From the NCBI GenBank assembly GCA_011087605.1, contig JAALLE010000018.1, positions 1-51,312 on the forward strand: a DNA stretch of 51,312 nucleotides, given 5' to 3'. Positions 2,342 to 33,579 of the stretch are shown here, piece after piece (position 1 is the first letter of the stretch; each line of letters starts with the position of its first letter). Origin of the DNA: Hyphomicrobiales bacterium. GTDB taxonomy: Bacteria; Pseudomonadota; Alphaproteobacteria; Rhizobiales; Rhizobiaceae. A program made the position numbers and the translations under genes. Under the pieces are notes generated by a model. It saw nothing but the letters and a program-made list of their open reading frames with translations, had not been told where the DNA came from and made no database searches.

Positions 2342-3832
2342 ATGGATCCTATGCCCCGCAAACGGCCAAACATTGTTTGGTACTGCACTGATCAACAGCG
2401 CTACGACACCATTCGTGCGCTTGGTAATCAACACATCAACACGCCGAATATTGACCAGTTTGTTGAAGGCGGCACGGCGTTTACCAATGCCTATATCCAG
2501 AGCCCGATCTGCACCCCGAGCCGTGCGTCTTTCATGACCGGACGGTATCCTGCCAGCAATCACGTTCACCGCAACGGCAATTCTCACTTTCCTGACCATG
2601 AGGTGCTTGTCACCAAATTGCTTACCGATGCAGGCTATAATTGCGGGCTGATTGGTAAACTGCATTTGGCAAGCGCCGCCTCCGGCTCTGAAAAACGCAC
2701 CGATGATGGCTACGGTCTGTTTGAGTGGAGCCATCATCCCATGCCGACGCTGGATCCGGAGTTTCACGCTTATCACCGCTGGCTTAGAGATGAAAAAGGC
2801 GTCGATCCGGTGGAACTCTATTCATCGGTCAACAGTTTTTGCTGCGACGGAGTGCCTGCCGAACTGCACCAATCGACCTGGTGCACCGAAATGGCCATTC
2901 GGTTCATTGACGAGCAAGGCGACCAACCCTGGATGCTGTCGATGAATCCCTTCGATCCGCATCCGCCCTTCGATCCGCCGAAGGAATTTCGTGACCGCTA
3001 CGATCCCGACAAATTGCCGGGGCCGCTATTTCAGAAATCCGATCTGGAACGGCAAAAAATGTTTCGCAACATTTGTCAGCAATCGGTTCACGCCGTTGAC
3101 CCCAATGGAGTTAACGCGGATCCGGCTGAAGGAGAACGGCAGGAAAATACGGCAACCCGCCCCCCCGATAATTTCAATGGCCGTGAGGTCATCGCCGCCT
3201 ATTACGCCATGATTGAACTGGTCGACGAGCAATTTGGTCGTTTGGTTGATCACCTCTCAAATTTGGGTGAATTGGAAAACACTATCATCGTCTTTCACTC
3301 CGACCACGGCGAACTGCTCGGCGACCATGGGCTGCTTTACAAAGGCTGCAGATTCTTTGAAGGTTTGGTCCATGTACCGCTGATGTTTAGTTGGAAGGGC
3401 CAGTATCAGGCCGGCCTGAGAAGCGACGCCCTGGTTGAACTGGTCGACATCGCGCCCACACTGCTGGAAGCGGCAGGCGTGGAAATACCTTATTACATGC
3501 AGGGAAAATCCCTGCACAAGATGCTGTTGGGCAAAGCCGATCCCGGCCATCACAAGGACAGCGTCGTATGTGAATTCAACGACGCATTGGGATCGGCGGA
3601 AGAATCCGTTCCGACCCATGCGACCATGAATTTCGATGGCCGCTATAAGTCGATCGTCTATCACGGCCATGATCTGGGCGAAATTTTCGATCTTCAGGAA
3701 GACCCCGGCGAATTTCACAACCTGTGGCACGAACCGGGCAATCAGGACTTGAAACTGGAACTGCTTCACAAACATCTCGATGCGGTAATGGCAACGAGTT
3801 CGCCCGGCATAGAACGCGTGGGCAGATTTTAA
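2342..3832 (+). CDS. Type I sulfatase 1 (CTPSR)
   Basis: Hydrolyses a sulfate ester, using a formylglycine made from a cysteine. The alkaline-phosphatase-like fold begins at once (RPNIVWYCTDQQR, with metal-ligand Asp17-Gln18). Cys57 in C-T-P-S-R is the residue converted to formylglycine. GKLH near residue 106 and HSDHGELLGDHG near residues 319-330 supply further active-site and metal ligands. There is no signal peptide, so it should act in the cytoplasm. ATG 2351 is an equally possible start. The protein is a close paralogue of the sulfatase at 31121, sharing the CTDQQR start, the CTPSR motif and a C-terminal YHGHDLGE motif. It lies 49 bp upstream of an ABC solute-binding protein gene on the same strand and is probably co-transcribed with the ABC transporter. 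The natural substrate is unknown. Confidence 0.93.
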   Translation: MDPMPRKRPNIVWYCTDQQRYDTIRALGNQHINTPNIDQFVEGGTAFTNAYIQSPICTPSRASFMTGRYPASNHVHRNGNSHFPDHEVLVTKLLTDAGYNCGLIGKLHLASAASGSEKRTDDGYGLFEWSHHPMPTLDPEFHAYHRWLRDEKGVDPVELYSSVNSFCCDGVPAELHQSTWCTEMAIRFIDEQGDQPWMLSMNPFDPHPPFDPPKEFRDRYDPDKLPGPLFQKSDLERQKMFRNICQQSVHAVDPNGVNADPAEGERQENTATRPPDNFNGREVIAAYYAMIELVDEQFGRLVDHLSNLGELENTIIVFHSDHGELLGDHGLLYKGCRFFEGLVHVPLMFSWKGQYQAGLRSDALVELVDIAPTLLEAAGVEIPYYMQGKSLHKMLLGKADPGHHKDSVVCEFNDALGSAEESVPTHATMNFDGRYKSIVYHGHDLGEIFDLQEDPGEFHNLWHEPGNQDLKLELLHKHLDAVMATSSPGIERVGRF

Positions 3833-3881
3833 GGGCAATAAAGCAAAAAACCGAAATACGATTAAACAGGGAGAGAGAGAA

Positions 3882-5441
3882 ATGAAACTAACGGCAAAAA
3901 TCACGATGGTCGCCGCATTTGCGGCGTTCCTCAATAGCTCCGGAGCAGCACTGGCAGATGATGTCTGCCCCAAACGTGGCGGAATTCTTAAAACCGTAGA
4001 CATGCATTATAAATCAGTCGACCCGACCCAACGCGCCAACCCGGTCTACCAAATGCGACTGGTCTATGACGCCTTGCTGGACGTCAATTACGACCTCAGC
4101 ATCGCACCAGGTCTTGCTGAAGCCATGCCGACACAAGTGAACGACACCACCTTCGTCTTCAAACTGCGCAAGGGTGTGAAGTTCCACGATGGCACCGATT
4201 TCAATGCGCAAGCAGTGAAATACAATACCGACCGGTTGATCAAGGGCGAAGTCAAGTCACCCTATACCGGCACCTGGAAACGGTTCCTCAGTGCCATAAC
4301 CGTGGTCGACGACCATACCGTCAAATTCGAATTCAAGGAAAAATGGCCTTCCTTCCTGTGGGAAGCCGCGACATCTCTTCGGTTTGGCTCACCGGCAAAG
4401 ATCGAGGAACTGGGTAAGAGTTACGGCATTAAGGGGGCTGCAGGCACCGGACCGTTCATGTTTAAGTCGTTCAAAGCCAAAAAATCGCTGACACTGGAGC
4501 GCAACCCAAACTACTACCGCACCGGCGAACCCTGCCTGGATGGCTATCAGGCACGAACGATCAAGTCCGGCAGCGTCCGCATTCTGTCGGTCAAGAAGGG
4601 CGACCTGGACGTCATCAACACGTTCCCTGAATCGCAATTCCCTCAGTTTGAAGGTGTAACCAATGTGTCTGTGCAGGAAGGCAAGGCGTCGACCCTGACC
4701 ATTCTGCCACTGAACACCAAACATCCCGCCCTGGCTGACAAACGCGTGCGCCAGGCGATCCAACTGGCCGTCAACGGACGCGTTCTCATCGACAATGTCT
4801 ATGGCGGTGCGGGCGAAGAGATCGAGTCGATCTTCCCGCCATGGCATCCCGGTTTTGAAAAAGCAGAAGATCTGTCCGGAATTCGTCAGGACGTCGAAAA
4901 GGCTAAAAAACTGCTGGCAGATGCGGGCTATGGCCCCGGTGGCAAGAAGCTGACATTGAACATGGAAACCGGTTCAGGTGGCGCGCATGTTCAGCGCGGT
5001 GTGCTGATCCAGGCCCAGATGAAAGCAATCGGCATCGATCTGAATGTGCAAAACATCTCCATGGGTCAGGCCCTGTCGAATATGTATTCAGGCAATTACC
5101 ACATGATCCTGTGGCAAATGCTGGGCGGTCCCAACATGAAGGACTATGCCTGGAACCTGTTTTCCTCCGATGGCACAGGCAACTACACCTACTATAACAA
5201 GGACGGTGGTTACCAGAATGCGCGCGCCAACGAACTCGCCAATGAGATCGTCAAAACGGAAGACCCCGATGCGGTTCGTGCCCAGATCAAGGAACTGCAA
5301 TCGCTCGTCTTTGAAGACGTGCCCTATATTTTCCTCAACTACCGCAACCACAGAACTGCCCGCCAGTCTTACGTGATGAATTTCGAGACCGGCAAACTGA
5401 AAGGTCGTGAAGATCTGCGTCGGGTGTGGCTCGACAAATAA
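3882..5441 (+). CDS. Dpp/Opp-type ABC transporter solute-binding protein
   Basis: Periplasmic binding protein of SBP family 5, 519 residues. Residues 1-25 are a signal peptide ending ALA-D. RGGILKTVDMHYKSVDPTQ near residue 32 and KLRKGVKFHDGTDF near residue 96 are family hallmarks. This family binds peptides, but also oligosaccharides, glycosides and opines. With sulfatases on both sides of this operon, a sulfated or glycosidic ligand is as likely as a peptide. The start has a strong GGGAGAGAGAG ribosome site. A hairpin follows the stop codon and may raise the level of this protein over the permeases. Confidence 0.92.
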   Translation: MKLTAKITMVAAFAAFLNSSGAALADDVCPKRGGILKTVDMHYKSVDPTQRANPVYQMRLVYDALLDVNYDLSIAPGLAEAMPTQVNDTTFVFKLRKGVKFHDGTDFNAQAVKYNTDRLIKGEVKSPYTGTWKRFLSAITVVDDHTVKFEFKEKWPSFLWEAATSLRFGSPAKIEELGKSYGIKGAAGTGPFMFKSFKAKKSLTLERNPNYYRTGEPCLDGYQARTIKSGSVRILSVKKGDLDVINTFPESQFPQFEGVTNVSVQEGKASTLTILPLNTKHPALADKRVRQAIQLAVNGRVLIDNVYGGAGEEIESIFPPWHPGFEKAEDLSGIRQDVEKAKKLLADAGYGPGGKKLTLNMETGSGGAHVQRGVLIQAQMKAIGIDLNVQNISMGQALSNMYSGNYHMILWQMLGGPNMKDYAWNLFSSDGTGNYTYYNKDGGYQNARANELANEIVKTEDPDAVRAQIKELQSLVFEDVPYIFLNYRNHRTARQSYVMNFETGKLKGREDLRRVWLDK

Positions 5442-5543: not shown

Positions 5544-6491
5544 ATGTTGACAACCGTCATCCTTCGCCGCTTGCTGTTTTCCTTCCCGACGATCCTCGGG
5601 GTGGCAACTCTCGCCTTTCTGCTGGGGCATATGTCACCTGGCGACCCGGCCATCGCTGCGATGGGGCTGGACCTTGATGGCGAATCAATGATCGATCCGG
5701 ACGAATTGGCTCGGGTTCGCGAAGAACTGGGTCTCAACAAACCGTTGATCGTTCAGTATCTACAATGGATCGGGAATGCGCTGCAGGGCGATTTCGGCAC
5801 GTCCTACGTCAGCAGCACCGAAGTCTCTGAAATGGTGTTTGAAGCATTGCCGACCACCATGCTTTTGCTGGTGCTGACTATGTCCACCGCCATAATATCC
5901 GGCATGGCCCTGGGCATCGTGTCTGCGGTATTTCGTGGCCGCAGCATGGATTATGTGGCGCGGATGATCGCCATTATCGGTGTCAGCACGCCGACCTTCT
6001 GGTTTGCACTCGTACTGATGCTGACATTTGCCTTTGCAATTCCGATATTTCCGATGAACGGGCCGGTATCGGAGCATGGGCTGATCGCCATGGCGCTGCC
6101 CACTTTGGCAATTGCCTTGCACCCAGCGGCGCTGATTGCCCGCATGACCCGCTCCAGCATGCTTGAGGTTCTTTCTCAAGACATGATCCGAACTGCCGCC
6201 GCGAAAGGCCTAGGGAAATGGCGCGTGTTCATGGTCCATGGACTACGCAACGCTATTAACCCGGTGATCACGGTCATTGGATTTCAATTTGCCAACCTGA
6301 TGGGCGGCGCTGTTGCAGTTGAATTCATCTTTTCATTGCCCGGACTGGGTAGTCTGCTGATCGAGGGAATTTACGAGAAGGACATTCTTCTTATTCAAGG
6401 GGCGGTGCTGGTTATCGGCGTGGCTTTCGCCTTGTCCAACTTGATCGTTGACCTGCTCTATATGGTCATCGACCCGAGGATACGCGTATGA
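5544..6491 (+). CDS. Dpp/Opp-type ABC transporter permease (DppB-like)
   Basis: Inner-membrane permease, 315 residues, typical of the DppB/OppB type. The N-terminal helix (LRRLLFSFPTILGVATLAFLL) and a PGDPA motif near residue 32 precede the BPD_transp_1 domain with about six helices. The EAA-like cytoplasmic loop is at about residues 218-235 (RTAAAKGLGKWRVF). The stop overlaps the next start by four bases (ATGA), so the two permeases are translationally coupled. Confidence 0.92.
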   Translation: MLTTVILRRLLFSFPTILGVATLAFLLGHMSPGDPAIAAMGLDLDGESMIDPDELARVREELGLNKPLIVQYLQWIGNALQGDFGTSYVSSTEVSEMVFEALPTTMLLLVLTMSTAIISGMALGIVSAVFRGRSMDYVARMIAIIGVSTPTFWFALVLMLTFAFAIPIFPMNGPVSEHGLIAMALPTLAIALHPAALIARMTRSSMLEVLSQDMIRTAAAKGLGKWRVFMVHGLRNAINPVITVIGFQFANLMGGAVAVEFIFSLPGLGSLLIEGIYEKDILLIQGAVLVIGVAFALSNLIVDLLYMVIDPRIRV

Positions 6492-7387
6492 CCGTAACGC
6501 CATCTCCATCGATGATTGAAGGCTCGGCGAGCAAAAACGGTTGGACGCTGTTTAAAGAGAGTTTCCAGCACTTTCTGGCCAGCAGACTGAACCGCTTCAG
6601 CTTCGGTTTGACGGTCTGCCTGCTGTTGCTGATCGTCATTGCCCCATTTATTGCGATTTACCCGTATGACGAAGTCAACCCGGCGCTTGGCCTGTCTCCG
6701 CCAAGTTGGGCCCACCCGATGGGGACAGATCAGGCCGGTCGCGATGTGTTTTCGCGGGTCATTTATGGTGCGCGCACGTCGCTGTCCATTGGCCTGGTTA
6801 CCGTGTTGTTCGGTCTCCTGACCGGCGTGACTATCGGTGCCGTGTCTGGATATCTGGGCGGCTGGGTTGACGAAATCATTATGCGCATTGTGGAAATTTT
6901 CATGTCGATCCCGGGGATCGTTATCGCACTGGCGCTGGTCAGCGTGCTTGGCCCAAGCCTGCCTTCCATCGTGCTGGCACTATCGATACGCCGGATAACC
7001 CAATTCGCCCGCGTCGCCCGCGGGTCGGTTCTCAGTGTCAAATCGGAAGATTATGTCACTGCTTGCCATGCAATAGGGATGAGCAATTTGCGCATCATCT
7101 TCGTGCATATCCTGCCCAACTGCATTGGCCCAATTATCGTTCTGGCCTCTGTACTGCTGGGCAATGTGATCCTGACGGAATCGACCCTCAGTTTCTTGGG
7201 AATGGGCATTCAAGAGCCGACCCCTAGCTGGGGCACAATGATCGCAAAAGGCAACGAATACCTAACTTTCGCCCCCTGGATTTCGGTTTTTCCGGGGCTT
7301 TTTCTTTTTCTTACAATGATCGCCTTCAATCTACTGGGCGATGGTCTGCGTGATCATCTCGATCCGCGCGGCGGCAGTGTTGTCTAG
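6488..7387 (+). CDS. Dpp/Opp-type ABC transporter permease (DppC-like)
   Basis: Second permease subunit, 299 residues. It has the DppC-type N-terminal helix, then HPMGTDQAGRDVFSRVIYGAR near residue 76, a hallmark of this subunit. The BPD_transp_1 domain follows, with its EAA loop near residues 190-205 (DYVTACHAIGMSN). It pairs with the preceding permease to form the channel. The sulfatase gene begins only 10 bp after its stop, so the sulfatase is inside the transporter operon. Confidence 0.92.
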   Translation: MTVTPSPSMIEGSASKNGWTLFKESFQHFLASRLNRFSFGLTVCLLLLIVIAPFIAIYPYDEVNPALGLSPPSWAHPMGTDQAGRDVFSRVIYGARTSLSIGLVTVLFGLLTGVTIGAVSGYLGGWVDEIIMRIVEIFMSIPGIVIALALVSVLGPSLPSIVLALSIRRITQFARVARGSVLSVKSEDYVTACHAIGMSNLRIIFVHILPNCIGPIIVLASVLLGNVILTESTLSFLGMGIQEPTPSWGTMIAKGNEYLTFAPWISVFPGLFLFLTMIAFNLLGDGLRDHLDPRGGSVV

Positions 7388-7397
7388 AGGAGCACCA

Positions 7398-8930
7398 ATG
7401 ACCAGGAAACCCAACATTTTGCTGATAACGTCCGACCAGCACAGGGGCGATTGCTTCGGGTTTGAAGGCCGCAAAGTCAAAACTCCGCACCTTGACCGGA
7501 TGGCGCGCGAAGGCACGCGGTTTTCCAACTGCATCACGCCCAACGCGGTATGCCAACCCTCCCGCGCTTCCATTCTGACGGGGCTCTTTCCCTGCACCCA
7601 CGGTGTCAGCGACAACGGTATCGACCTGGAGACACCGCTGGGTGAACTGGGGTTTGCACGAACGCTGGAACGGGCCGGTTACAACAGTGCCTTTGTCGGC
7701 AAGACTCACTTCTCCACCCACCACACATTTGAACCAACCGGCACGCCTGAGGATAAATCCACCATTCCCGACCTGCCGGAAGACTGGATGGGGCCTTATA
7801 TGGGCTTTGATCATATGGAGACAATGATCCTGGGGCACTATACCCATGGCCGCCCGGCACCTCCCCCCGACACGCTGCATTATGAAAAGTGGCTGTATGC
7901 CGATGGTCGCGGACCGGAAAAAATGGCCCTCTGGGACACCCACCTGCCGCCGGATGTTGGAGCGCCACAAACGTGGAATTCCGCGCTGCCCTCCGCCTGG
8001 CACCATTCCACCTGGGTCGGCAATCAAACGATCCGCTATCTGGAAAACCACAAGGACGAAAACTTCGTCATGTGGACGTCGTTCCCCGATCCCCATACGC
8101 CCTTTGATTGCCCTGAACCCTGGTGCTATGCGCACCATCCCGACGAGGTCGACGTACCCCATCACATGGAACGCGATCTGGACCGGCGACCCTGGTGGCA
8201 TGCGGCCAGCCTTGAGGGAACGCCGCAGATTGAGGACGCAGTGTTGCGAAAACATCGCGCCACATATTCGCGAGTTGAGCCCCCAAACGAACATCGGTTG
8301 CGGCACACCATCGCCAATTATTACGGCATGATCTCGCTGATCGACCACAATGTGGGTCGTATCCTGACCGTGCTGGATGAACTGGGGCTATCGGACAATA
8401 CAATCGTTATCTTCACCGCCGATCATGGCGAATGGCTTGGTGATCACGGCTTGTTGCTGAAAGGACCGATGCTCTATGATGGCCTGCTGCGGGTTGGCTG
8501 CATTGCGCGCGGCCCGGGAATCAAGCAGCAACAGGTCGTTGACGAGCCTATCTCCACCGTGGATCTGGCACCCACATTCCACGACTATTCCGGCATCTCT
8601 CCAGAATTGCTGCAGCACGGTAAAAGCCTGCGGCCGTTGCTGGAAGGCAAATCCGAGCCAAGGGATTTCGCCCGCAGCGAATGGGATTTGCGGCCATCTC
8701 GCAACGGCGTCAAATTGAATTTGCGCACTGTTCGGACCAAAACCGCGAAATTGACACTGGAGGAAATTTCTGGCGCCGGCGAAATGTATAACCTGCAGGA
8801 TGACCCGCATGAAATGGACAATCTGTTCGACGATTCCGGTTACACAGCGTTGCGAAACGAACTTACCGATATGATCCGTTCGCGACCCGATGACATGATC
8901 GAACCGAAAACCCCCGTTGGCATGGCCTGA
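7398..8930 (+). CDS. Type I sulfatase 2, embedded in the ABC transporter operon (CQPSR)
   Basis: Sulfate-ester hydrolase of 510 residues. It starts directly with the first strand (KPNILLITSDQH; Asp13-Gln14) and has no signal peptide, so it is probably cytoplasmic. Cys52 in C-Q-P-S-R is the formylglycine site. GKTH near residue 98 and TADHGEWLGDHG near residue 358 are metal and active-site motifs. ATG 7398 is chosen because a GAGG ribosome site precedes it; the frame extends upstream only into the permease gene. It sits between the permease genes and the ATPase genes with gaps of 10 and 9 bp, which argues that its substrate comes in through this transporter. Confidence 0.93.
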   Translation: MTRKPNILLITSDQHRGDCFGFEGRKVKTPHLDRMAREGTRFSNCITPNAVCQPSRASILTGLFPCTHGVSDNGIDLETPLGELGFARTLERAGYNSAFVGKTHFSTHHTFEPTGTPEDKSTIPDLPEDWMGPYMGFDHMETMILGHYTHGRPAPPPDTLHYEKWLYADGRGPEKMALWDTHLPPDVGAPQTWNSALPSAWHHSTWVGNQTIRYLENHKDENFVMWTSFPDPHTPFDCPEPWCYAHHPDEVDVPHHMERDLDRRPWWHAASLEGTPQIEDAVLRKHRATYSRVEPPNEHRLRHTIANYYGMISLIDHNVGRILTVLDELGLSDNTIVIFTADHGEWLGDHGLLLKGPMLYDGLLRVGCIARGPGIKQQQVVDEPISTVDLAPTFHDYSGISPELLQHGKSLRPLLEGKSEPRDFARSEWDLRPSRNGVKLNLRTVRTKTAKLTLEEISGAGEMYNLQDDPHEMDNLFDDSGYTALRNELTDMIRSRPDDMIEPKTPVGMA

Positions 8931-8939: not shown

Positions 8940-9932
8940 ATGAAACCTGTCCTTGAATTAAAGAACCTGCAGACCCAGTTTGAAACCCGCTCGGGAATTG
9001 TGCGGGCCGTCGATGGCGTGAGTTATCATGTCAATCACGGAGAAACGCTGGGTGTCGTGGGGGAATCGGGTTGCGGAAAGAGCGTTACTTCCCTTTCGGT
9101 TCTGCGACTAATTCCCAACCCGCCCGGCAAAATTGTCGGCGGGTCGGTGATGTTCGAAGGCGAAGATCTGACCCAGGTACCAGACCACCTCATCCGAAAC
9201 ATACGCGGCAAAGAAATCTCGATGATTTTTCAAGAGCCGATGACCTCCCTGAACCCAATGATGACCGTCGGCAATCAGATCAGCGAACCCTTGATCCGCC
9301 ATCTTGGGTTGAGCAAGAAAGACGCGTTGGACCGCGCCCGCGAGATGCTTGATCTGGTGCAGATTCCAGATTCAAAATCCTGGTTGAGCGGCTATCCGCA
9401 TCAGATGTCCGGCGGAATGCGTCAACGGGTTATGATTGCCATGGCGCTCGCTTGTGACCCCAAAGTTCTCATCGCTGATGAGCCGACAACCGCACTCGAC
9501 GTTACGATTCAGGGCCAAATCCTCATACTGATCAAGGAATTACAGGAAAAACTGGGAACTGCAGTCATCATGATCACACACGACCTGGGTGTCGTGGCGG
9601 AAGTCGCTGACCGGGTGGTTGTGATGTATGCGGGGCGCAAGGTTGAGGAAGCCGACATCCACACACTGTTTGAACGGCCCCGTCATCCCTACACGGTCAG
9701 GTTGATGACCGCCATTCCAAGACTTGACCGCATTGCTGCTGCCAATGGAGCCCCTGAGCGATTGACAGAGATACCAGGCACAGTTCCGTTGTTGTCTGAA
9801 TTGCGGTCAGGATGCGCGTTTTTCGACCGATGCGCCTTTGCGTCGGAGCAGTGCGGCAAGGAGGCCCCTGTTCTGGAGGAAAAGAGCAGGGGCCATTGGG
9901 CTGCCTGCTGGAATGAGGCACCATTTCAATGA
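8940..9932 (+). CDS. Dpp/Opp-type ABC transporter ATPase (DppD-like)
   Basis: Cytoplasmic ATPase subunit, 330 residues. Walker A is GESGCGKS at residues 41-48, the signature MSGGM at 156-160, and Walker B LIADEP at 177-182. The C-terminal oligopeptide-transporter extension has clustered cysteines (SGCAFFDRC, then CG and CW), as in family members that bind an iron-sulfur cluster. It overlaps the next ATPase start by four bases. Confidence 0.94.
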   Translation: MKPVLELKNLQTQFETRSGIVRAVDGVSYHVNHGETLGVVGESGCGKSVTSLSVLRLIPNPPGKIVGGSVMFEGEDLTQVPDHLIRNIRGKEISMIFQEPMTSLNPMMTVGNQISEPLIRHLGLSKKDALDRAREMLDLVQIPDSKSWLSGYPHQMSGGMRQRVMIAMALACDPKVLIADEPTTALDVTIQGQILILIKELQEKLGTAVIMITHDLGVVAEVADRVVVMYAGRKVEEADIHTLFERPRHPYTVRLMTAIPRLDRIAAANGAPERLTEIPGTVPLLSELRSGCAFFDRCAFASEQCGKEAPVLEEKSRGHWAACWNEAPFQ

Positions 9933-14727: not shown

Positions 14728-14744
14728 AATTGGTTGGGCCAATT
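14728..14744. promoter_or_regulatory. Inverted repeat AATTGG-N5-CCAATT in the FGE/TctC divergent region
   Basis: A perfect 6-bp dyad lies 28 bp upstream of the TctC start, between the divergent FGE and TctC genes. It is a possible operator for either direction; the regulator is unknown. Confidence 0.3.
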
Positions 14745-14772
14745 ATTCAGATGCCCCTGGGAGGGAAAAATC

Positions 14773-15759: not shown

Positions 15760-15867
15760 TCTGGTTCCTCCCGCCGGTCATCGATCACGCCATCGCACTA
15801 ATTGTCGCCTAAGGCGCGGTGGCCGGCATTCAAAACTTCGAAAATTCGCTCGCGCAGGAGTGCAGAA

Positions 15868-16362: not shown

Positions 16363-16365
16363 ACC

Positions 16366-22696: not shown

Positions 22697-22753
22697 TGCA
22701 TCTTCTCCGTTGGGAAGTTGGTGATTTGATGTTGTTTGGAGTATGGACATCAA

Positions 22754-22772
22754 ACATTCTGTGGCGGAATGT
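22754..22772. promoter_or_regulatory. LysR-type box (T-N11-A dyad)
   Basis: ACATTC-N7-GAATGT is a perfect 6-bp dyad containing ATTC-N7-GAAT, which has the T-N11-A form typical of LysR operators. It lies between the divergent enolase-superfamily gene and the LysR gene, and so could control both. Confidence 0.5.
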
Positions 22773-22778
22773 AACATC

Positions 22779-25157: not shown

Positions 25158-25164
25158 AACATTG

Positions 25165-25293: not shown

Positions 25294-26268
25294 ATGAAAA
25301 AACTCCTAGGTATACTCGCTGCTTCAGCTATTGCGTTTACAGGTTCTGCGTCGGCTGCAGGGTGGCCCGAAAAGCCGATTAAACTCGTTGTTCCGTTTAA
25401 GGCTGGAGGCACATCAGATCAGGTCGGACGCGTTTTGCAGGCCGGAATTCAGGAAAACAAAATCCTCGACCAGCCGATCACAATCGTCAATGTCGGCGGT
25501 CATTTTTCGATTGGCGCGCGCCGGGTTAAAGAGGCAACGCCAGATGGATATGAATTCCTGCTGATCCACATTGCATTGATGGGTGGCGAAGGCACAGGGG
25601 CGCTCGACTTCGGCTGGCGTGATTTCAAACCAGTAGCCGGGCTTGGAGAATTCTGCATTGCACCGATGGTGCGCAAGGATTCTGACATTAACTCAATGGA
25701 AGAGCTGCTCGCCAAGGCTAAAAACGAACCCGACACGTTGATTTTTGGTGCCAATCTGGGTGCGATCAACCATCTTGCGGGCCTGATGATTCAGGAATCC
25801 AATCCAGGGTCAAAATTCCGCTTTGTTCAAATTGGTGGCGGAACGGCAAACTACACGGCGCTGACCGGAGCACAAACCAATACAACCGTATTGTCAGGCG
25901 CCGAAGTTGTGCAGTTCACTCAGCTTCCTGATGGCACCGACAACCCGGAATCACAGATCAAACCGCTGGCCTATTCTGGTTCAGAACGGTTTTCAGGCAT
26001 GCCGGATATTCCCACGCTGAAAGAGCTTGGTTATGACGTTCAGTTCTGCATCAATTCATGGGTGTTTGCTCCCAAGGACGCTCCTGCAGAAGCGGTTGAA
26101 GGCATGGCAAATGCGCTTGAAAAATCTGCTCAGACCGACCGCTATAAGGCGTTCATCAAGAAGAAGGGTTTTTCCGACAACTTCCTGAAAGGTGACGCTT
26201 TGCAGGCAAGCATGCAGACAACATGGGACGCTATTGAACCCATCGCTAAACTGGCAAAGAAAAAATAA
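25294..26268 (+). CDS. Tripartite tricarboxylate transporter binding protein (TctC/Bug family), module D
   Basis: Periplasmic binding protein, 324 residues. A signal peptide (residues 1-22, ending ASA-A) precedes WPEKPIKLVVPFKAGGTSDQ, the family motif. It is similar in layout to the module C protein but clearly diverged, so it probably binds a different acid. A GTGAGAGGAAATT ribosome site precedes the ATG. A strong hairpin follows the stop. Confidence 0.93.
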   Translation: MKKLLGILAASAIAFTGSASAAGWPEKPIKLVVPFKAGGTSDQVGRVLQAGIQENKILDQPITIVNVGGHFSIGARRVKEATPDGYEFLLIHIALMGGEGTGALDFGWRDFKPVAGLGEFCIAPMVRKDSDINSMEELLAKAKNEPDTLIFGANLGAINHLAGLMIQESNPGSKFRFVQIGGGTANYTALTGAQTNTTVLSGAEVVQFTQLPDGTDNPESQIKPLAYSGSERFSGMPDIPTLKELGYDVQFCINSWVFAPKDAPAEAVEGMANALEKSAQTDRYKAFIKKKGFSDNFLKGDALQASMQTTWDAIEPIAKLAKKK

Positions 26269-26286
26269 CCTTCCTTTGACGACCAT

Positions 26287-26311
26287 CGCCCGGACATGAT
26301 CTGTCCGGGCG
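26287..26311 (+). promoter_or_regulatory. Strong hairpin between TctC and TctB genes
   Basis: CGCCCGGACA pairs with TGTCCGGGCG across a 5-base loop (10-bp stem). As after the ABC binding-protein gene at 5454, there is no U-run, so it more likely protects the upstream message or partly attenuates transcription than stops it. Confidence 0.6.
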
Positions 26312-26342
26312 GTTCAACTTTGGCGGCTGAGAGGGGATAGCT

Positions 26343-26822
26343 TTGCAACGAAACCCGATTACCGAAATTTTGGTCTGCGGATTTATCGCACTGATTTGTT
26401 TGGTTTTTTTCATCAATGCATGGAGCTTGCCTCCAGGCACTTTTGAACCTTTGGGTTCGGGTCCGGTGCCGCTCGCAACTGCGGCAATTGTCATCATATG
26501 TTGCCTTGTAATCATGATTGGTCAGGCGCGCGCGCTTATTCGAAACGGTCAGGTCGAACGCCAGTTTCGAATGGAATTTATGACGAGATCCCCCTATGGA
26601 CCGCTGATCACGCTTGGCCTCACCGTAGTCTATGTGGCGGCACTCGATCTGAATGTTGCTTCGTTTGGCGTTATCACCTGTGTCTTTTTGACGATATTAA
26701 TCGCGGCTCTGGAGAACTTTAAACTCAAAAGTCTGCTCCCGGCCTTCCTTGTTGCCGTCGTCGTCAGCTTCGGCGTCGAATACATGTTCACCAACGTGTT
26801 CGTCGTCGATTTACCGGCCTAG
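26343..26822 (+). CDS. TctB-family small membrane subunit, module D
   Basis: 159 residues, about four membrane helices, TTG start with GAGAGGGG upstream. The LPPGTFEPLGSGPVPL segment near residue 29 matches the module C TctB. It should form the membrane complex with the TctA protein encoded next. Confidence 0.87.
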   Translation: MQRNPITEILVCGFIALICLVFFINAWSLPPGTFEPLGSGPVPLATAAIVIICCLVIMIGQARALIRNGQVERQFRMEFMTRSPYGPLITLGLTVVYVAALDLNVASFGVITCVFLTILIAALENFKLKSLLPAFLVAVVVSFGVEYMFTNVFVVDLPA

Positions 26823-26832
26823 GAGCGTATCA

Positions 26833-28329
26833 ATGGATCTTGCAGCGCTCTCTACCGCGATACTACAAATTCTGACACCGTGGTCGTTTTTCATGCTTTT
26901 CATCGGCACCCTGCTGGGCATTGTCGTTGGAGCAATTCCGGGTTTGACCGGAGCCATGTTGATCGCTCTGACATTGCCACTGACCTTCTACATGGAGCCC
27001 TTCAACGCAGTGGTTTTGCTGATCTCTATGTATGTCGGTGCGATCAGCGGGGGACTGATTACGGCAACCCTGATGCGTATGCCGGGCACTCCGGCGTCGG
27101 TGATGACAACGTTCGACGGCTATCCAATGGCCCGAAGTGGACGGCCGGGTCGTGCCCTTGGCCTTGGCATAACGGCATCGTTTGTCGGCGGACTGATCGC
27201 CTGGGGTGTCTTGCTGACCGTAACAAAACCGCTGTCCATTCTCGCCACCCGGTTCGGCCCGTTTGAATATTTCACGTTGATCATGATGGCCATGGTGCTG
27301 ATCGCTTCGGTCAGCGAAGGCTCGATGGTCAAAGGGCTGATATCCGGCCTGCTCGGCATGTTGGTTTCAATGCCCGGCGTCGACCCCGCATCCGGCATGC
27401 CGCGTCTGACATTCGACTGGTACCTGCTCAATGGCGGCCTGCAATTATTGCCGGTGTTGATTGGAACATTCGCGGTCAGCCAGATAATAGCCGACACGTT
27501 AGATGTTCAAAACAAACCGGAACGAGCGGAGGTGGCAAATGACAGCGTGCTGATGAGCTTCAGCGACTTGAAAAAGAATGCTGTTAACATGATCCGCTCC
27601 TCCTTTATCGGCACCGGGATCGGAATTCTGCCGGGCATTGGCGCGTCAATTGGCTCGGTGGCGGCCTATACAACTGCCAAAAACGTGTCGAAGTCGCCGG
27701 AGAAATTCGGCACGGGTTCTGAAGAAGGCATCATCGCTTCAGAAGCCGCCAACAATGCCACTGTGGGGGGCGCCCTGATCCCGCTGATCGCAATGGGTAT
27801 TCCCGGCAGCGTGATCGATGCAATCCTGATCGGGGCGTTGACCATCCATTCAATTCAGCCCGGACCGACGCTGTTTTTGACCAATAACGATATTGTCTGG
27901 GCGATGATTGCGACCTGTCTGCTGGCCAATATTTTGATGTTCTTCTTTATGACATCATCGGTCCGTTACATCGCCTCGATGATTTATCTGCCGCGAAGTT
28001 TTGTGCTGCCGGTGGTCGCCGTGTTCTGTGTTGTCGGGTCTTACGCCCTCAACAACACAATGTTCGACGTTTGGGTCATGCTATTGTTTGGCGTGATTGG
28101 CTTCATGCTTGAACGTGCCAAAATCCCGCTTGGACCGTTCGTGATCGGTTTTGTTCTGGCACCGCTGGCAGAGGAAAAATTGCGCAGCGGTCTGATGATG
28201 ACAGCCGGTGATATCAGCCCTGTCGTCACTCGCCCCTTCCCGCTGTTTTTCACAATAACTGCAGTCATCTTGCTGATCTGGCCTTTTTGGACAGAGCACA
28301 AACGCAAGCGTGCCGGCAAGACGGACTAA
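26833..28329 (+). CDS. TctA-family large membrane subunit, module D
   Basis: 498 residues, the same length as the module C TctA and colinear with it. It has GIVVGAIPGLTGAMLIALTL near residue 30, MPGTPASVMTTFDGYPMA near residue 85 and ILPGIGASIGS near residue 265. ATG 26833 has AGGAG eight bases upstream; an in-frame extension from 26749 overlaps the TctB gene and is not family-like. Confidence 0.94.
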   Translation: MDLAALSTAILQILTPWSFFMLFIGTLLGIVVGAIPGLTGAMLIALTLPLTFYMEPFNAVVLLISMYVGAISGGLITATLMRMPGTPASVMTTFDGYPMARSGRPGRALGLGITASFVGGLIAWGVLLTVTKPLSILATRFGPFEYFTLIMMAMVLIASVSEGSMVKGLISGLLGMLVSMPGVDPASGMPRLTFDWYLLNGGLQLLPVLIGTFAVSQIIADTLDVQNKPERAEVANDSVLMSFSDLKKNAVNMIRSSFIGTGIGILPGIGASIGSVAAYTTAKNVSKSPEKFGTGSEEGIIASEAANNATVGGALIPLIAMGIPGSVIDAILIGALTIHSIQPGPTLFLTNNDIVWAMIATCLLANILMFFFMTSSVRYIASMIYLPRSFVLPVVAVFCVVGSYALNNTMFDVWVMLLFGVIGFMLERAKIPLGPFVIGFVLAPLAEEKLRSGLMMTAGDISPVVTRPFPLFFTITAVILLIWPFWTEHKRKRAGKTD

Positions 28330-28359: not shown

Positions 28360-28443
28360 ATGGATCAAAATGGCCAACCCCCAATGGGCGGCAAAGTCGT
28401 TGTCGCTTTGCTCCTTGTCAACGGCGCTGACACCAGCCGATGA
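28360..28443 (+). CDS. Possible 27-residue leader ORF coupled to the enolase-superfamily gene
   Basis: An ATG at 28360 with TAGGAG ten bases upstream opens a frame encoding MDQNGQPPMGGKVVVALLLV and seven more residues. Its stop overlaps the next start as ATGA. The ribosome site and coupling suggest translation. It matches nothing I recognise. The gene's role may only be to feed ribosomes to the next start, which has no ribosome site of its own. Confidence 0.4.
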   Translation: MDQNGQPPMGGKVVVALLLVNGADTSR

Positions 28444-29582
28444 CAAAGCTGCGCAAAGTTGAAATTTATCACTACCGGCATTCACTGGCGCATCCATTGA
28501 CGACCGTGATGGGACCTGTGACCCATCGTCCTGCCATTCTTGTCTGCGTCGAGGACAGCGACGGCAATCGCGGCTGGGGAGAGATCTGGTGTAATTTTCC
28601 ACCCGATGGAGATTTTCACCGGGCCCGGCTGGCGCTCAACATATTGCCCTCTGCGCTTGGCAGTATCACGCTGGATCGCCCGTTTGAAACATTCGATTGC
28701 TTGCGACGGAAATTTCATCGCCTCGCCCTGCAGGCGGGAGAATTCGGACCCGTCGATCAGATTGCTGCCGGGGCAGATATTGCAGTCCACGATCTTGTCT
28801 CCCGGCGCAACGGTCTATCATTGTCGGCGCATTTGGGTCGGGCAACAACAAGTGTCGCTGCCTATGCAAGCGGCATTGCTCCTGATCTCCACCAAGAACA
28901 AATTGAACGCATGAGAGGATTGGGATATCGCCGGTTTAAACAACGCATCGGTTTTGGACAGGATGATGGGCTGCCCGAATTGGAAGCAGCTGCCGGTAGT
29001 TTGAACCCGGGAGAGCGTATGATTGCCGATGCCAATCAGGCATGGACCCTGGACAAGGCCCGCCGACAAATGGACCGGTTGGTCAATCTGAACCTCGCAT
29101 GGCTTGAAGAACCGCTGCAGGCCGATGCGTCGGATCAAGACTGGTCAGCACTTGCCCAACAGCAGGCAATTCCATTGGCTGCTGGAGAAAACCTTCGAGA
29201 CAGGTGCAGTTTTGATGCTGCCATTAAGACCGGCGCGCTTCGCGTCATTCAACCGGACATCTGCAAATGGGGTGGCCTGTCCGGTTGTCTTGCTGTTGGA
29301 AAGCTCGCCGTTTCAAACGGATTGAGATATTGCCCGCACTTTCTGGGCGGCGGTGTCGGCCTGATTGCATCGGCCCATGTTCTTGGAGCGATTGGCGGAG
29401 ATGGCTGGCTTGAAGTGGACAGTTCGGAAAATCCGCTGCTGTCACACTTTTCAGAAGGCAGAATTGAATTGCAGGAAGGGAGTTTCGCTCTCCCATCAGG
29501 TCCCGGCCTTGGTTACGACCCAGACACTGATGGTGCGGCTGACATGCTTCATTCACATGAAATCAGGGACATAGTTCAATGA
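28440..29582 (+). CDS. Enolase-superfamily enzyme (mandelate racemase/muconate lactonising type)
   Basis: 380 residues. Metal ligands are Asp197 (ADANQAW), Glu223 (WLEEP) and Glu250 (AAGEN). Lys167 in FKQR and His300 in CPHFLGG are likely catalytic bases, as in the mandelate-racemase subgroup. It should act on a hydroxy-acid or sugar acid (dehydration, epimerisation or cycloisomerisation). It overlaps the UxaA-type small subunit start by four bases (29579-29582), so the two enzymes very likely work in one pathway. It is only distantly similar to the other enolase-superfamily enzyme here. Confidence 0.9.
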   Translation: MTKLRKVEIYHYRHSLAHPLTTVMGPVTHRPAILVCVEDSDGNRGWGEIWCNFPPDGDFHRARLALNILPSALGSITLDRPFETFDCLRRKFHRLALQAGEFGPVDQIAAGADIAVHDLVSRRNGLSLSAHLGRATTSVAAYASGIAPDLHQEQIERMRGLGYRRFKQRIGFGQDDGLPELEAAAGSLNPGERMIADANQAWTLDKARRQMDRLVNLNLAWLEEPLQADASDQDWSALAQQQAIPLAAGENLRDRCSFDAAIKTGALRVIQPDICKWGGLSGCLAVGKLAVSNGLRYCPHFLGGGVGLIASAHVLGAIGGDGWLEVDSSENPLLSHFSEGRIELQEGSFALPSGPGLGYDPDTDGAADMLHSHEIRDIVQ

Positions 29583-29872
29583 GCCACGGTCCTTACCAGG
29601 CAATTCTATTAAACCAGAAGGACAATGTTGTGTGCCTGTTGCAGGACATCAGCGCCGGAGAACAGCCAGCGGTTGATGGGGCAAGCTCACCGGCACTTTT
29701 GCAGGACACGTCGCTGGGACACAAAATAGCGCTTACAAAAATAAACCACGGTGCACCCGTGGTAAAATATGGCGCAGTCATTGGCCTGGCGACAAAAGAC
29801 ATTGAACCGGGAGAGCATGTTCACCTGCACAATCTGACCGGACTAAACCATGCCAGGGATAAGGCAAAATGA
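29579..29872 (+). CDS. UxaA-family dehydratase, small (SAF-domain) subunit
   Basis: 97 residues forming a SAF domain, the N-terminal part of altronate/galactarate dehydratases. HKIALTKINHGAPVVKYGAV and the EPGEHVHLHNL end are characteristic. In this family the domain may be a separate subunit, as in SuyA of (2R)-sulfolactate sulfo-lyase. It overlaps the large subunit start by four bases. The reaction would be removal of water, or less likely sulfite, from a 2-hydroxy acid. Confidence 0.88.
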   Translation: MSHGPYQAILLNQKDNVVCLLQDISAGEQPAVDGASSPALLQDTSLGHKIALTKINHGAPVVKYGAVIGLATKDIEPGEHVHLHNLTGLNHARDKAK

Positions 29873-31035
29873 TCGGCGCAGAATTCCAGGGTTTTGCAAG
29901 GACTGCTGGTGCTGCAGGAGTGCGCAACCATTTGCTCGTGCTTGGAACCTGTGGTCTCAATGCTTCGGGAGCCAGAAAGGTTGCCGCATTGCTGCCGGGA
30001 TGCAGACTCGTGGCTTCGCCCTATGGGCGCGGTCAGGTTGGTGAGGACAAATTGTTTCATCAGCACATGCTCACAGGCTTTGCCTGTCATCCCAATGTAG
30101 GTGGCGTGATCATCCTGGCGCCAGACAAGGTGGCGCGGGACTTTTATGCGGAAGCCGTTGAAAGTACTGGTAGATTTTGCTGCGCACTTTCGCTGCAGGA
30201 ATGCGATGAAGATGGCGAACTGATCGTTGAAACTGCCGTCAAACAGGGCCTGCAAATACAAAAATCCCTGAACGCACAACAGCGCCAGAGCGTCCCGGTT
30301 TCTGATCTGATTGTGGCTGCTGAATGCGGACATTCCGACGCGTCTTCTGGAATTATCGCCAACCCTCTGGTCGGCGCTTATGCCGATGCGCTGACCAGCA
30401 AGGGTGGCCGGTTTGTCATCAGTGAAACGTTGGAATGGACCGGAACAGTAGATGCCCTGACAGCGCGGTGCGCGACCGGCGAAATTGCAACGCAACTGGA
30501 GAAAATGTACGCGGCTCGACACCGCATCGCTGCCAGTGCAGGCATTGACATCACATTGGGAAACCCCGGTCCGCAAAACCACGCAGGTGGCCTGACAACT
30601 CTGGAAGAAAAATCATTTGGCGCTGTTATGAAGGGCGGAACCGGCCCCATTGTAGGCGCCCTGGAGCAAGGCCGGTCTATCCCCGAAGTGCCAGGGCTTT
30701 ATCTCATGGATACTCCGACTCTATCGCCAGAATCCATTTCTTCCATGGTGGTGGCAGGAGCCCAGATCGTGTTGTTTACAACCGGACATGGCAATCCTTA
30801 TGGCAGCGCTCTGGCCCCGACGGTCAAGATCACCGCAAATCCAAAATCTGCAACCCGGCTGCCCCGCCAGATCGACTTTGATGCTTCGCGTGCATTTATG
30901 GGTGAAGTCCCTCTCATCGACCTTCTGCCGCCTATGCAAGATCTCATCAACGAAATAGCGAACGGCGCACACACCTGGTCGGAAAAACTGGATGAGGGCG
31001 AAGAATTTATCAGCCGCCAATTCCCCTCAATTTAG
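29869..31035 (+). CDS. UxaA-family dehydratase, large subunit
   Basis: 388 residues matching the catalytic part of altronate/galactarate dehydratase. It has GVRNHLLVLGT near residue 16, AECGHSDASSGIIANP near residue 149 and GGLTTLEEKSFGAV near residue 242. Cysteines in these motifs fit the family's iron-sulfur cluster. Its length and split architecture also match SuyB. In a sulfate-ester cluster with sugar-acid enzymes, a sugar-acid dehydratase is the more natural call, but a sulfo-lyase role is not excluded. Confidence 0.88.
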   Translation: MIGAEFQGFARTAGAAGVRNHLLVLGTCGLNASGARKVAALLPGCRLVASPYGRGQVGEDKLFHQHMLTGFACHPNVGGVIILAPDKVARDFYAEAVESTGRFCCALSLQECDEDGELIVETAVKQGLQIQKSLNAQQRQSVPVSDLIVAAECGHSDASSGIIANPLVGAYADALTSKGGRFVISETLEWTGTVDALTARCATGEIATQLEKMYAARHRIAASAGIDITLGNPGPQNHAGGLTTLEEKSFGAVMKGGTGPIVGALEQGRSIPEVPGLYLMDTPTLSPESISSMVVAGAQIVLFTTGHGNPYGSALAPTVKITANPKSATRLPRQIDFDASRAFMGEVPLIDLLPPMQDLINEIANGAHTWSEKLDEGEEFISRQFPSI

Positions 31036-31120: not shown

Positions 31121-32524
31121 ATGGCAAAACGCCCCAACATTCTTTGGTACTGCACCGATCAACAAAGATTTGACACGATCGGTGCCTTGGGAAACCCCCA
31201 CGTACAAACCCCAACACTGGATGGGCTGGTGGAATCAGGAACAGCCTTCACCCATGCCTATTGCCAAAGTCCGATCTGCACTCCCAGTCGATCCAGCTTC
31301 ATGACGGGCATGTATCCCAGTCGGGTGCACAATTGCCGAAATGGCAATGAAGACTTTGCCGGTCACCCTCCCCTGATTTCCAAACTGATAGCGGATTCCG
31401 GCTATGACTGTGGCATGGTCGGAAAATTTCACCTGCAAAGCTCCGGCAAACGAACCGAACCGCGCCTCGATGACGGCTATGGCTTCTGGAAATTCAGTCA
31501 CGCACCACGTGACGATTGGTCTGAAGGACACGACTATGCCGACTGGGTCAAGGAACAGGGAGCCGATCTGGGTAAGCTGCTTGAAGGCGATGAAAACGTG
31601 CCATCACAGTTCCACCAGACCACATGGACCTCTGATCGCGCCATCGAATTCATTTCCCAGGAACGCGACAAGCCTTGGTTTTTAACTCTCAACCCCTACG
31701 ATCCGCATCCGCCGTTCATTCCGCCCAAATCCTATGCCGACCGATTTGACGCCGAAGCCATGCCGGGCCCCTATTTTCGCGAGTCTGATCTGGAACAACA
31801 GAACCAATTGAAAGATATAGATTTTCAGACCCGAGCCCAGCGGCCCGAAGAGTTCAATGGCCGCAAGCAGCAGGCGCTTTATTACGCAATGGTTGCCCAA
31901 ATTGATGATCAACTCGCCCGGATACTCAAGCATCTGGATGATACCGGGCAGCGTGAAAATACGATTATCATCTTCACCAGCGACCACGGTGAATCACTCG
32001 GTGATCACGGCCTGCAGTTCAAAGGCTGTCGGTTCTATGAGGGGCTGGTCCGCGTCCCGCTGATTTTTTCGTGGCCGGGACACATCCAGCAGGATTTGCG
32101 CAGTGCGGCTTTGGTGGAACTTATTGATATGTCTGCGACCCTTCTGGATTGCGCTGGCGTGAAACTCCCTGAACAGATGCAAGGCAAGAGCCTGTTGCCA
32201 ATCTTACAGGGTACAGCCCCACCACAAGAACATAGGGAATTCGTTCGCTGCGAATATTTTGACGCCATCGACAGCAGTTTTTGTCCCGGAGACGGCGATC
32301 AATCATTTGCCACCATGTACCGGGACGCCCGCTTCAAACTTGTTGTCTATCATGGCCATGATCTGGGAGAACTGTATGATCTGCAAAGTGATCCCTGGGA
32401 GTTTGAAAATCTTTGGGACCAACCCGACTTTGCCCATGAAAAGATGCGGTTAATTCAAGCAAGTTTCAACGCTTCGATGCTGCAGTCGATCGATGTGGGC
32501 GCCCGTCGCATAGCCCCGATGTAA
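31121..32524 (+). CDS. Type I sulfatase 6 (CTPSR)
   Basis: 467 residues. Starts with AKRPNILWYCTDQQRFD (Asp13-Gln14) and has no signal peptide. Cys53 in C-T-P-S-R is the formylglycine site; TSDHGESLGDHG is near residue 286. It is a close paralogue of sulfatase 1 over its whole length, including FHQTTW and YHGHDLGE motifs, suggesting related substrates. It follows the UxaA-type genes by 85 bp on the same strand, so desulfation and acid dehydration may be one pathway. Confidence 0.93.
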   Translation: MAKRPNILWYCTDQQRFDTIGALGNPHVQTPTLDGLVESGTAFTHAYCQSPICTPSRSSFMTGMYPSRVHNCRNGNEDFAGHPPLISKLIADSGYDCGMVGKFHLQSSGKRTEPRLDDGYGFWKFSHAPRDDWSEGHDYADWVKEQGADLGKLLEGDENVPSQFHQTTWTSDRAIEFISQERDKPWFLTLNPYDPHPPFIPPKSYADRFDAEAMPGPYFRESDLEQQNQLKDIDFQTRAQRPEEFNGRKQQALYYAMVAQIDDQLARILKHLDDTGQRENTIIIFTSDHGESLGDHGLQFKGCRFYEGLVRVPLIFSWPGHIQQDLRSAALVELIDMSATLLDCAGVKLPEQMQGKSLLPILQGTAPPQEHREFVRCEYFDAIDSSFCPGDGDQSFATMYRDARFKLVVYHGHDLGELYDLQSDPWEFENLWDQPDFAHEKMRLIQASFNASMLQSIDVGARRIAPM

Positions 32525-32589
32525 CTCGGATTTGCAGCGCACGGATTGACCCATCACAATTGAATTAACTGTCCATGCAGCGACGATGA

Positions 32590-33579
32590 TTGTTTGCGGC
32601 GCTTGCCCGATCCATTCTGGTAGTTTTAGGAAATTCACAAATCAACTCAGACCGATTCACTTTTATTCATGCGATTCATGACACCTGGCGTCAGCAATCG
32701 GCAGTATTGCGCGGGGTCGTGTTGATGTGTGTTTCGACCGTGGCGTTTGCCATAATGCACGCCCTGGTCAGATATGTTTCGTCTGAACTGCCGCCATTTC
32801 AAATAGCCTTTTTCCGAAATCTGTTTGGGTTTGTTTTCCTCCTGCCACTGCTTGTTCGATCCAAATTTGAAATGTTCCAAAGTCGTCGCATCGGTCTTCA
32901 TGCATTGCGCGGCGTAGTCAACATTGCAGCCATGCTGATGTTCTTCACGGCTCTGTCGTTAAGCCCCCTGGCCAAAGTTACAGCGCTAAGTTTTACAGGC
33001 CCGATCTTCGTTGCAGTATTGAGCATCGTGGTGCTGGGTGAGCGGTTTCGGCTCTATCGGTGGCTGGCGATCGCGACTGGTTTTCTGGGCATGTTGATTA
33101 TCCTGCGACCGGGCATGGTTGCGCTCGATACCGGAGGGCTTTTAGCGGCGGGCGCGGCCGCATTGTGGGCGGTAGCAATGATCCTGATCAAACTGTTGTC
33201 TCGCACCGAATCCAGCGTGACCATCGTCGGATGGATGGGCATATTCTTATGCCTGTTTTCACTGGGTCCCGCGCTGTTGGTCTGGCAAACGGTATCCGCC
33301 GAAAACTGGATTTGGTTATCGCTTATCGGCCTTAGCGGAACCATTGCACAAATCGCTTTGAGCCAGTCGCTGAAGGAGACCGAGCCAACGGCAGTATTGC
33401 CATTCGACTTTCTAAAGCTGATCTGGACCGCCTTGTTGGGGGTATGGTTCTTTTCTGAAACACCGGATCTCTACACCTGGATAGGAGCGGCGATCATTTT
33501 CTCTTCCGGCCTGTTTATCGCCCACCGCGAACGGCGCAGCAGACGGCAATCTTCAACGAAGATCTCAACGACCAAATAA
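32590..33579 (+). CDS. EamA/DMT-family transporter
   Basis: A membrane carrier with two EamA repeats and about ten helices; the first helix is near residues 44-60 (RGVVLMCVSTVAFAIMH). The start is uncertain. TTG 32590 is the first start codon after an in-frame stop but lacks a ribosome site. AGGA at 32628-32631 would suit an ATC at 32641, and later codons in frame are possible. It is the last plus-strand gene of the sulfatase region and may export a by-product; this is inference. Confidence 0.82.
   Translation: MFAALARSILVVLGNSQINSDRFTFIHAIHDTWRQQSAVLRGVVLMCVSTVAFAIMHALVRYVSSELPPFQIAFFRNLFGFVFLLPLLVRSKFEMFQSRRIGLHALRGVVNIAAMLMFFTALSLSPLAKVTALSFTGPIFVAVLSIVVLGERFRLYRWLAIATGFLGMLIILRPGMVALDTGGLLAAGAAALWAVAMILIKLLSRTESSVTIVGWMGIFLCLFSLGPALLVWQTVSAENWIWLSLIGLSGTIAQIALSQSLKETEPTAVLPFDFLKLIWTALLGVWFFSETPDLYTWIGAAIIFSSGLFIAHRERRSRRQSSTKISTTK

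Follow-up and report, generated by a model that had tools for sequence, protein, structure and literature searches.

Uptake of sulfated sugars for desulfation in the cytoplasm has already been published. In Streptobacillus moniliformis, a glycosaminoglycan (GAG) cluster encodes a binding-protein-dependent ABC importer, through which sulfated disaccharides enter intact, and a sulfatase predicted to be cytoplasmic, according to the available part of that report (PMC5430744). Among the tripartite tricarboxylate transporters (TTT), the TctCBA class, SlcHFG of Roseovarius and Chromohalobacter is recorded for sulfolactate, a sulfur-bearing hydroxy acid, and TctABC of Halomonas for the sugar acids galactarate and glucarate, in the available part of a review (PMC5812351). 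Here we describe a cluster of six sulfatase genes (S1 to S6), one gene for a formylglycine-generating enzyme (FGE) and three importers, located at approximately 2342–33579 of contig JAALLE010000018.1 (GCA_011087605.1) from a Hyphomicrobiales bacterium of the Rhizobiaceae; the whole stretch of 51,312 nt that was analysed is referred to as the window. The cluster probably serves to catabolise small sulfated carboxylates, most likely sugar acids bearing sulfate, which would be imported whole and desulfated inside the cell. The pairing with TctCBA-class importers appears to be its new part.

The described systems differ from the window in several respects. The Streptobacillus cluster has an ABC importer, GAG disaccharides as ligands and a GH88 UGL, and the available text describes neither TctCBA nor acid-sugar dehydratases. 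The SlcHFG ligand is a sulfonate and not a sulfate ester, so that no sulfatase step is involved, and the Halomonas ligand is unsulfated. Rhizobial loci such as L097 also have an importer beside a sulfatase of the S4 family; this importer is, however, of the SsuA-type ABC class (SsuABC), whereas the window S4 has TctCBA, and no NMT1 match indicating an SsuA-type receptor was detected among the 40 window open reading frames (ORFs) scanned with Pfam. These rhizobial loci presumably resemble the ats system. A description of TctCBA–sulfatase pairing was not found in the open-access papers searched, including the available parts of SAR202 papers on sulfatases and mandelate racemase, and no open-access paper matched cytoplasmic sulfatase, transporter and sulfated as a joint topic. 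A preliminary description of the window, made from its sequence, had stated that Tct and Dpp transporters are not known to be established for sulfated carbohydrates or acids. This was partly wrong, as the TTT ligands above include sulfolactate and galactarate/glucarate, and the solved relatives of SBP5, the solute-binding protein of the Dpp/Opp set, include agrocinopine-binding AccA and AgaA (by PDB chain names). Those of TctC1 are Bug-type proteins (homology only).

The gene families named in the preliminary description were all recovered by Pfam: six PF00884 proteins, one FGE, one Dpp/Opp set and two TctCBA sets (Table 1). The Dpp/Opp set (SBP_bac_5, two permeases and two oligo_HPY ATPases) and both TctCBA sets are complete, the Tct sets scoring above the Pfam cut-offs. 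The plus-strand run at the left is ordered S1-SBP5-DppB-DppC-S2-DppD-DppF with gaps of at most 102 bp and two 4-bp overlaps; the sulfatase reported inside the Dpp/Opp operon is thus S2, with S1 just upstream. S3, LysR1 and FGE follow on the minus strand, and then TctC1-TctB1-TctA1-GntR-S4-UNK on the plus strand, GntR overlapping its neighbours on both sides. Beyond MR1 (minus), LysR2 (plus) and S5 (minus), the plus strand carries TctC2-TctB2-TctA2-MR2-SAF-UxaA-type-S6. New to the description are UNK, the split SAF + UxaA/GarD-type dehydratase with its SAF small subunit, and the two enolase-superfamily proteins MR1 and MR2.

Conservation of the sulfatase–importer linkage was examined in other genomes, Tct genes within 5 kb of a sulfatase being counted as linked. 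S4 relatives were collected with a profile of seven S4 proteins against genome contigs, and the best 80 of 502 relatives were used; a Rhizobiaceae metagenome-assembled genome (MAG) with a 96% identical S4 (L056, the closest named relative among the matches listed) and L125 with a split ORF were left out of the counts, leaving 78. The 12 close S4 loci (at least 740 bits) include those of Chelativorans alearense, Halovulum marinum, Marinovum algicola and Pseudoponticoccus marisrubri, and TctCBA is located beside S4 in 10 of them. Nine of these show the order TctC-TctB-TctA-GntR-S4, and in the tenth the contig is cut before TctC. One of the remaining two contigs starts 0.6 kb before S4 and includes GntR; the other (L062) has UNK divergent upstream of S4, and no Tct gene was seen over 3.8 kb on the upstream side or 6.3 kb on the downstream side. 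In C. alearense, a divergent S3-like gene and FGE are present as well, their order being swapped. On a quick tree of S4 (79 rows), the window falls within a set of 13 rows, 11 linked to Tct and two unassigned.

Relatives of S5, S2, S1/S6 and UNK were taken from a sample of 297 genomes of the order. At 1e-100, S5 relatives were found in 17 of the 297 genomes, its own included; Tct genes were within 5 kb in 18 of 22 cases, sugar ABC importers were present in three, and one contig was too short. Because at most five candidates were scored per genome, S5 paralogues may have been missed; under the same limit, only S5 itself matched in a 289-genome sample of the class at E 1e-120. The S2 relatives were linked to Tct in 9 of 10 cases, and the S1/S6 relatives in 7 of 14, with five by sugar ABC importers and two by none. 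On plasmids, Tct was present at all seven opened S2 loci (six of eight records, and L156, which is a further region in one of these), and S6 relatives were mostly beside sugar ABC importers (L153, L157, L159), one being beside Tct (L144); two further sets of records were sampled in part (2 of 19, and few of 15, opened).

The chance level was estimated at 3–9% per gene from TctA counts per genome (at most 13 candidates scored in each). For the S5 linkage (18 of 21), the binomial probability at this level is below 1e-15, a figure that is a guide only because the loci are related. Chance neighbours were ruled out by the linkage counts. The S2 linkage is the more independent observation, because S4 and S5 were picked from Tct-adjoining places in the window and S2 was not. 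The linkage spans several sulfatase groups and bacterial families, the genes being often overlapping or near-adjacent, and the conserved pairing that the preliminary description proposed to look for was thus found, across genera. Linkage of sulfatases with Dpp/Opp also recurs (L142, L050, L098, L099, L102), as in a second Opp operon beside sulfatases on contig C164 of the same genome.

More distant S4 relatives are found beside other importers, such as sugar ABC (L048, L049, L053), Opp (L050) and TRAP-like genes (L055). At L116, lone TctC-type receptors lie beside an SsuABC set, and therefore the real Tct cases are 13, not 14, of the 78 S4 relatives. Individual arrangements were observed at three loci. 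In Tianweitania aestuarii (L086, 6200–16600), the S4 relative is flanked by TctCBA-GntR and by SsuABC with a second sulfatase, possibly an importer exchange. An uncultured Roseibium (L070, 8900–16100) has FGE // S4-TctCBA-S1-like, the same parts rearranged, and a Mariniblastus MAG (L132, 7100–11400), a planctomycete outside Alphaproteobacteria, has Tct genes beside an S4 relative.

All six window sulfatases carry PF00884, CxPxR and G[KR]xH. Among the relatives including the window rows, CxPxR is conserved in 75/79 (S4), 25/26 (S5), 17/18 (S2) and 16/16 (S1/S6), and G[KR]xH in 79/79, 25/26, 18/18 and 16/16, respectively. S1 and S6 share 50% identity, and the other pairs 25–33% over the longest alignment. 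The FGE keeps both cysteines noted before, the pair in FLCHRSYC, which we take to be the active-site cysteines. S3 was rejected as true choline sulfatase BetC, its TIGR03417 score lying below the cut-off. Phosphonate or phosphodiester hydrolases are not favoured, as G[KR]xH is present in all six (a motif that we assume to argue against such activity) and PehA scores are 152–219 bits against a 900-bit cut-off.

The absence of signal peptides from the six sulfatases, stated in the preliminary description, was examined by a simple hydropathy scan and by the position of the start relative to the core. No leader was recognised in any of the six, while TctC1, TctC2 and SBP5 scored 1.9–2.4; the score of 1.38 for S3 arises because its core strand starts at residue 5. 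A hydrophobic start was seen in the longest S2 ORF, which begins at 7341 (score 2.39); the likely start is at about 7398, because the longer ORF overlaps DppC. By the rule of the script, a start lies within 14 residues of the core in 129 of the 139 sulfatases of the examined loci and in all but 5/79 S4 and 5/26 S5 proteins; of the latter five, L150 is cut and L219 has a Met there, a miss of the rule. The core is at or near a possible start codon also in the ten sulfatases encoded outside the window. Hydropathy and start position thus do not favour export of the sulfatases. In two of those ten (L022, 6128–7753; L025, 403–2127), CGASR replaces CxPxR.

The proposal of import of whole compounds followed by cytoplasmic desulfation is thus well supported by conserved operon linkage, together with sulfatases in which no leader was recognised, whereas its other part, that each module is independent, did not hold for the two Tct modules. 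In a genome of another family of the order (G226, L162), the contiguous order is MR1-S4-TctABC1-GntR-MR2-UNK-S5 // TctCBA2-UxaA-type-S3-like, and in Oceaniovalibus (L058) a single run with one TctCBA reads S3-like-MR2-SAF-UxaA-type-MR1-UNK-TctCBA-GntR-S4. As these loci keep most of the parts together, the Tct modules seem to form one integrated set, from which the Dpp module (S1, S2) is separate. UNK relatives are present in 8 of the 297 order genomes, its own included, and genes of the window set lie within 6 kb in five of the seven others; the exceptions have only a weak MR2 match (G100, L160) or a sugar ABC set (G231, L164). UNK showed no Pfam, NCBIfam or PHROG match, and no plasmid relatives at E 1e-5.

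The neighbouring enzymes bear on the ligand. Sugar-acid enzymes were found within 6 kb of the sulfatase at 13 of 49 Tct-linked loci and at none of 36 ABC-linked loci (Fisher p 4e-4, without phylogenetic correction); with the window-derived references alone (MR1, MR2, UxaA-type), the counts are 7/49 and 0/36. Of the six S2 plasmid records opened, four have an annotated alpha-hydroxy acid oxidase directly after the sulfatase; the one that was examined matched PF01070. In Paracoccus seriniphilus (L156), the gene order is LysR // S5-like-TctC-hypothetical (in the TctB position)-TctA-ltnD-otnK-aldolase (OtnC)-TIM barrel (OtnI), on one strand with short gaps, so that the L-threonate pathway directly follows the sulfatase and transporter. 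LtnD, OtnK and OtnC score above the NCBIfam equivalog cut-offs, and OtnI below (274.5 against 325). This route yields dihydroxyacetone phosphate, as stated in the available part of PMC12540250. The simplest reading of this gene order is that an O-sulfated tetronate would be imported, desulfated inside and fed into the known threonate route. In the window, TctCBA2 is instead followed by MR2 and the SAF/UxaA-type pair, and no threonate genes were seen among the window genes scanned. The enzymes of the window suggest longer sugar acids. Assignment of MR1 as gluconate/galactonate dehydratase, the best NCBIfam match, was rejected (NF040790, 172.6 bits against 750), as was GarD for the UxaA-type subunit (TIGR03248, 151.4 bits against 730.85; of its features, the split SAF + GD_AH architecture alone is present). 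No mention of ascorbate 2-sulfate was found in the open-access papers matched on ascorbate 2-sulfate or threonate.

From these families, motifs and gene orders we infer a sequence of steps in which the imported ligand would itself be the sulfatase substrate. TctC and SBP5 receptors would capture the ligand in the periplasm, and the TctBA and Dpp/Opp transporters would carry it in with the sulfate still attached. FGE-activated sulfatases would take off the sulfate in the cytoplasm, UNK may cut a glycosidic bond beforehand, and MR1, MR2 and the SAF/UxaA-type enzyme would dehydrate the freed sugar acids. Several observations weigh against this reading. Distant S4 relatives are linked to Tct in only 3 of 66 cases (L070, L086, L132), no importer was recognised within 5 kb of the S1 relatives L241 and L242, and S2 lies in a Dpp operon in the window, yet its relatives are mostly linked to Tct. 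Of four plasmid S5 loci opened (from five records), only one has Tct; the others have Opp plus sugar ABC, lie at the edge of the record, or (L155) carry none of the importers searched for, with MFS genes annotated. Sugar-acid enzymes also occur at 10 of 42 loci in which no importer was recognised, mainly of Caldilineaceae and other Chloroflexota; the contrast between Tct- and ABC-linked loci was devised after the loci had been seen, with hydroxy-acid oxidase and Otn references taken from Tct loci and with loci that are not independent. Tetronate genes were met at one locus only, and none of MR1, MR2 and the UxaA-type subunit reaches the cut-off of any NCBIfam family listed for it.

Varied sulfate esters might alternatively be imported mainly as a source of sulfate, the carbon skeleton being incidental. 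For such sulfur scavenging speak the 15 of 79 S4-tree rows labelled SsuABC and a representative receptor that scores above the cut-off of the SsuA family; a sulfonate-type importer thus also makes use of the S4 family. The carbon-catabolic genes near Tct-linked sulfatases (dehydratase-like, hydroxy-acid oxidase-type and L-threonate pathway) and the GntR/FCD regulator between TctCBA1 and S4 make it unlikely. Still less probable in our judgement is that the transporters take up unsulfated acids while the sulfatases serve other esters entering elsewhere, the co-location reflecting a shared niche: in several sulfatase groups and bacterial families, the linkage greatly exceeds what chance would give. 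In favour of this reading, the table in the available part of the TTT review lists no sulfate ester; the text of the review counts "sulfate" among the second functional groups that TTT ligands carry, which seems to refer to sulfolactate (PMC5812351).

Import followed by cytoplasmic desulfation, the reading preferred here, also has a variant, in which the ligand is a multiply sulfated oligosaccharide acid, the sulfatases act in sequence, UNK cleaves, and S3 to S6 belong to one pathway. L162 and L058, holding several sulfatases together with UNK, MR1, MR2 and the UxaA-type gene, agree with it, as do the predicted fold matches of UNK, mainly glycoside-hydrolase barrels; since the UNK model is of middling confidence with no catalytic pair established and UNK is missing from most Tct–sulfatase loci opened, we consider this variant possible but doubtful. 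With some reserve, a wider pathway may be suggested, in which TTT would import sugar acids or acidic oligosaccharides that carry several sulfates, cytoplasmic sulfatases would strip them stepwise, UNK would split them as a new glycosidase family, and split UxaA-type and enolase-superfamily dehydratases would pass the carbon on to central metabolism, the unit of a sulfatase and an exchangeable importer (TctCBA, SsuABC, sugar ABC or Opp) recurring across phyla.

Table 1. Features of the sulfatase–importer cluster (window coordinates)
Feature	Position	Strand	Evidence
Sulfatase S1 (CTPSR), first gene of Dpp/Opp run	2342..3832	+	PF00884 3.8e-46
SBP5, family-5 solute-binding protein with leader peptide	3882..5441	+	PF00496 2.7e-81; leader-like start
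Two Dpp/Opp permeases, overlapping by 4 bases	5544..7387	+	PF00528
Sulfatase S2 (CQPSR), permease/ATPase on either side, gaps 10 and 9 bp	7398..8930	+	PF00884 1.8e-45
Two Dpp/Opp ATPases	8940..10915	+	PF00005 + PF08352
Sulfatase S3 (CVPAR), choline-sulfatase-like	10935..12413	-	PF00884 3e-46; TIGR03417 328.6 bits, cut-off 433.45
LysR regulator 1	12524..13456	-	PF00126, PF03466
FGE, both (presumed) active-site cysteines	13604..14584	-	PF03781 2.3e-72; FLCHRSYC
TctC1-TctB1-TctA1 tripartite tricarboxylate transporter	14734..17862	+	PF03401, PF07331, PF01970
GntR/FCD regulator, 4-bp overlap with TctA1 and with S4	17859..18626	+	PF07729, PF00392
Sulfatase S4 (CVPCR)	18623..20104	+	PF00884 1.1e-46
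UNK, orphan, 457 aa, predicted glycoside-hydrolase-like barrel	20117..21490	+	fold similarity
MR1, enolase-superfamily, acid-sugar-dehydratase-like; 5' end approximate	21497..22750	-	PF13378 7.9e-44
LysR regulator 2	22743..23687	+	PF03466 3.7e-34, PF00126 4.9e-19
Sulfatase S5 (CIPAR), start uncertain	23700..25157	-	PF00884 7e-40
TctC2-TctB2-TctA2	25294..28329	+	PF03401, PF07331, PF01970
MR2, enolase-superfamily dehydratase/isomerase-like	28440..29582	+	PF13378 5.7e-49; PDB 3ddm E 2.9e-89, 4ggb 3.4e-33
SAF-domain small subunit	29579..29872	+	PF08666 1.8e-7
UxaA/GarD-type large subunit	29869..31035	+	PF20629 7.1e-70, PF04295
Sulfatase S6 (CTPSR)	31121..32524	+	PF00884 1.4e-53
EamA transporter, cluster membership unsure	32590..33579	+	PF00892

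Some gene models were corrected. S5 has no in-frame ATG, and its frame slips in an A-run by the likely start (region 25130–25200), which may reflect an assembly error, a real slip or a TTG start; the S5 start is in frame in the near-identical L056. The UNK frame appears to begin with ATT at 20117 after a ribosome-binding-like GAGGAG stretch (region 20105–20190), and with ATC in L056; its longest ORF under translation table 11 starts at a later TTG, which would cut a conserved strand. The MR1 ORF extends to 22888, overlapping LysR2. The SAF gene lies between MR2 and the UxaA-type gene, and therefore the SAF/UxaA-type enzyme has two subunits; in both L058 and L163, a SAF gene is likewise found next to that of the large subunit.

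The genome (4.19 Mb, 177 contigs) encodes 16 sulfatases, 11 TctA (per-genome count) and two FGE-family proteins, of which six sulfatases and one FGE-family gene are in the window. With respect to a mobile island, no transposase or integrase was detected among the 40 ORFs scanned with Pfam, and GC content by 2.5-kb blocks is 0.487 in the first block and 0.51–0.56 from 2.5 kb onward. A polyol-type module (alcohol dehydrogenase, mannitol-type dehydrogenase, SDR, sugar ABC importer and LacI) adjoins the cluster at 33762–42390, and an adenylate/guanylate cyclase domain fused to a MASE8 domain is encoded at 44568–45818.

If the proposed function is true, bacteria would consume a part of sulfated organic matter as small acids imported intact, and not only as polysaccharides desulfated extracellularly; marine samples are the source of many relatives. 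A ligand class open to testing would be provided for TTT transporters, few of which have a known substrate according to the available part of the review (PMC5812351), and also for sulfatases annotated merely as "sulfatase-like hydrolase". Since the pairing recurs in other bacteria, it is directly testable, and the S5-TctCBA-threonate operon of P. seriniphilus is a concrete first case.

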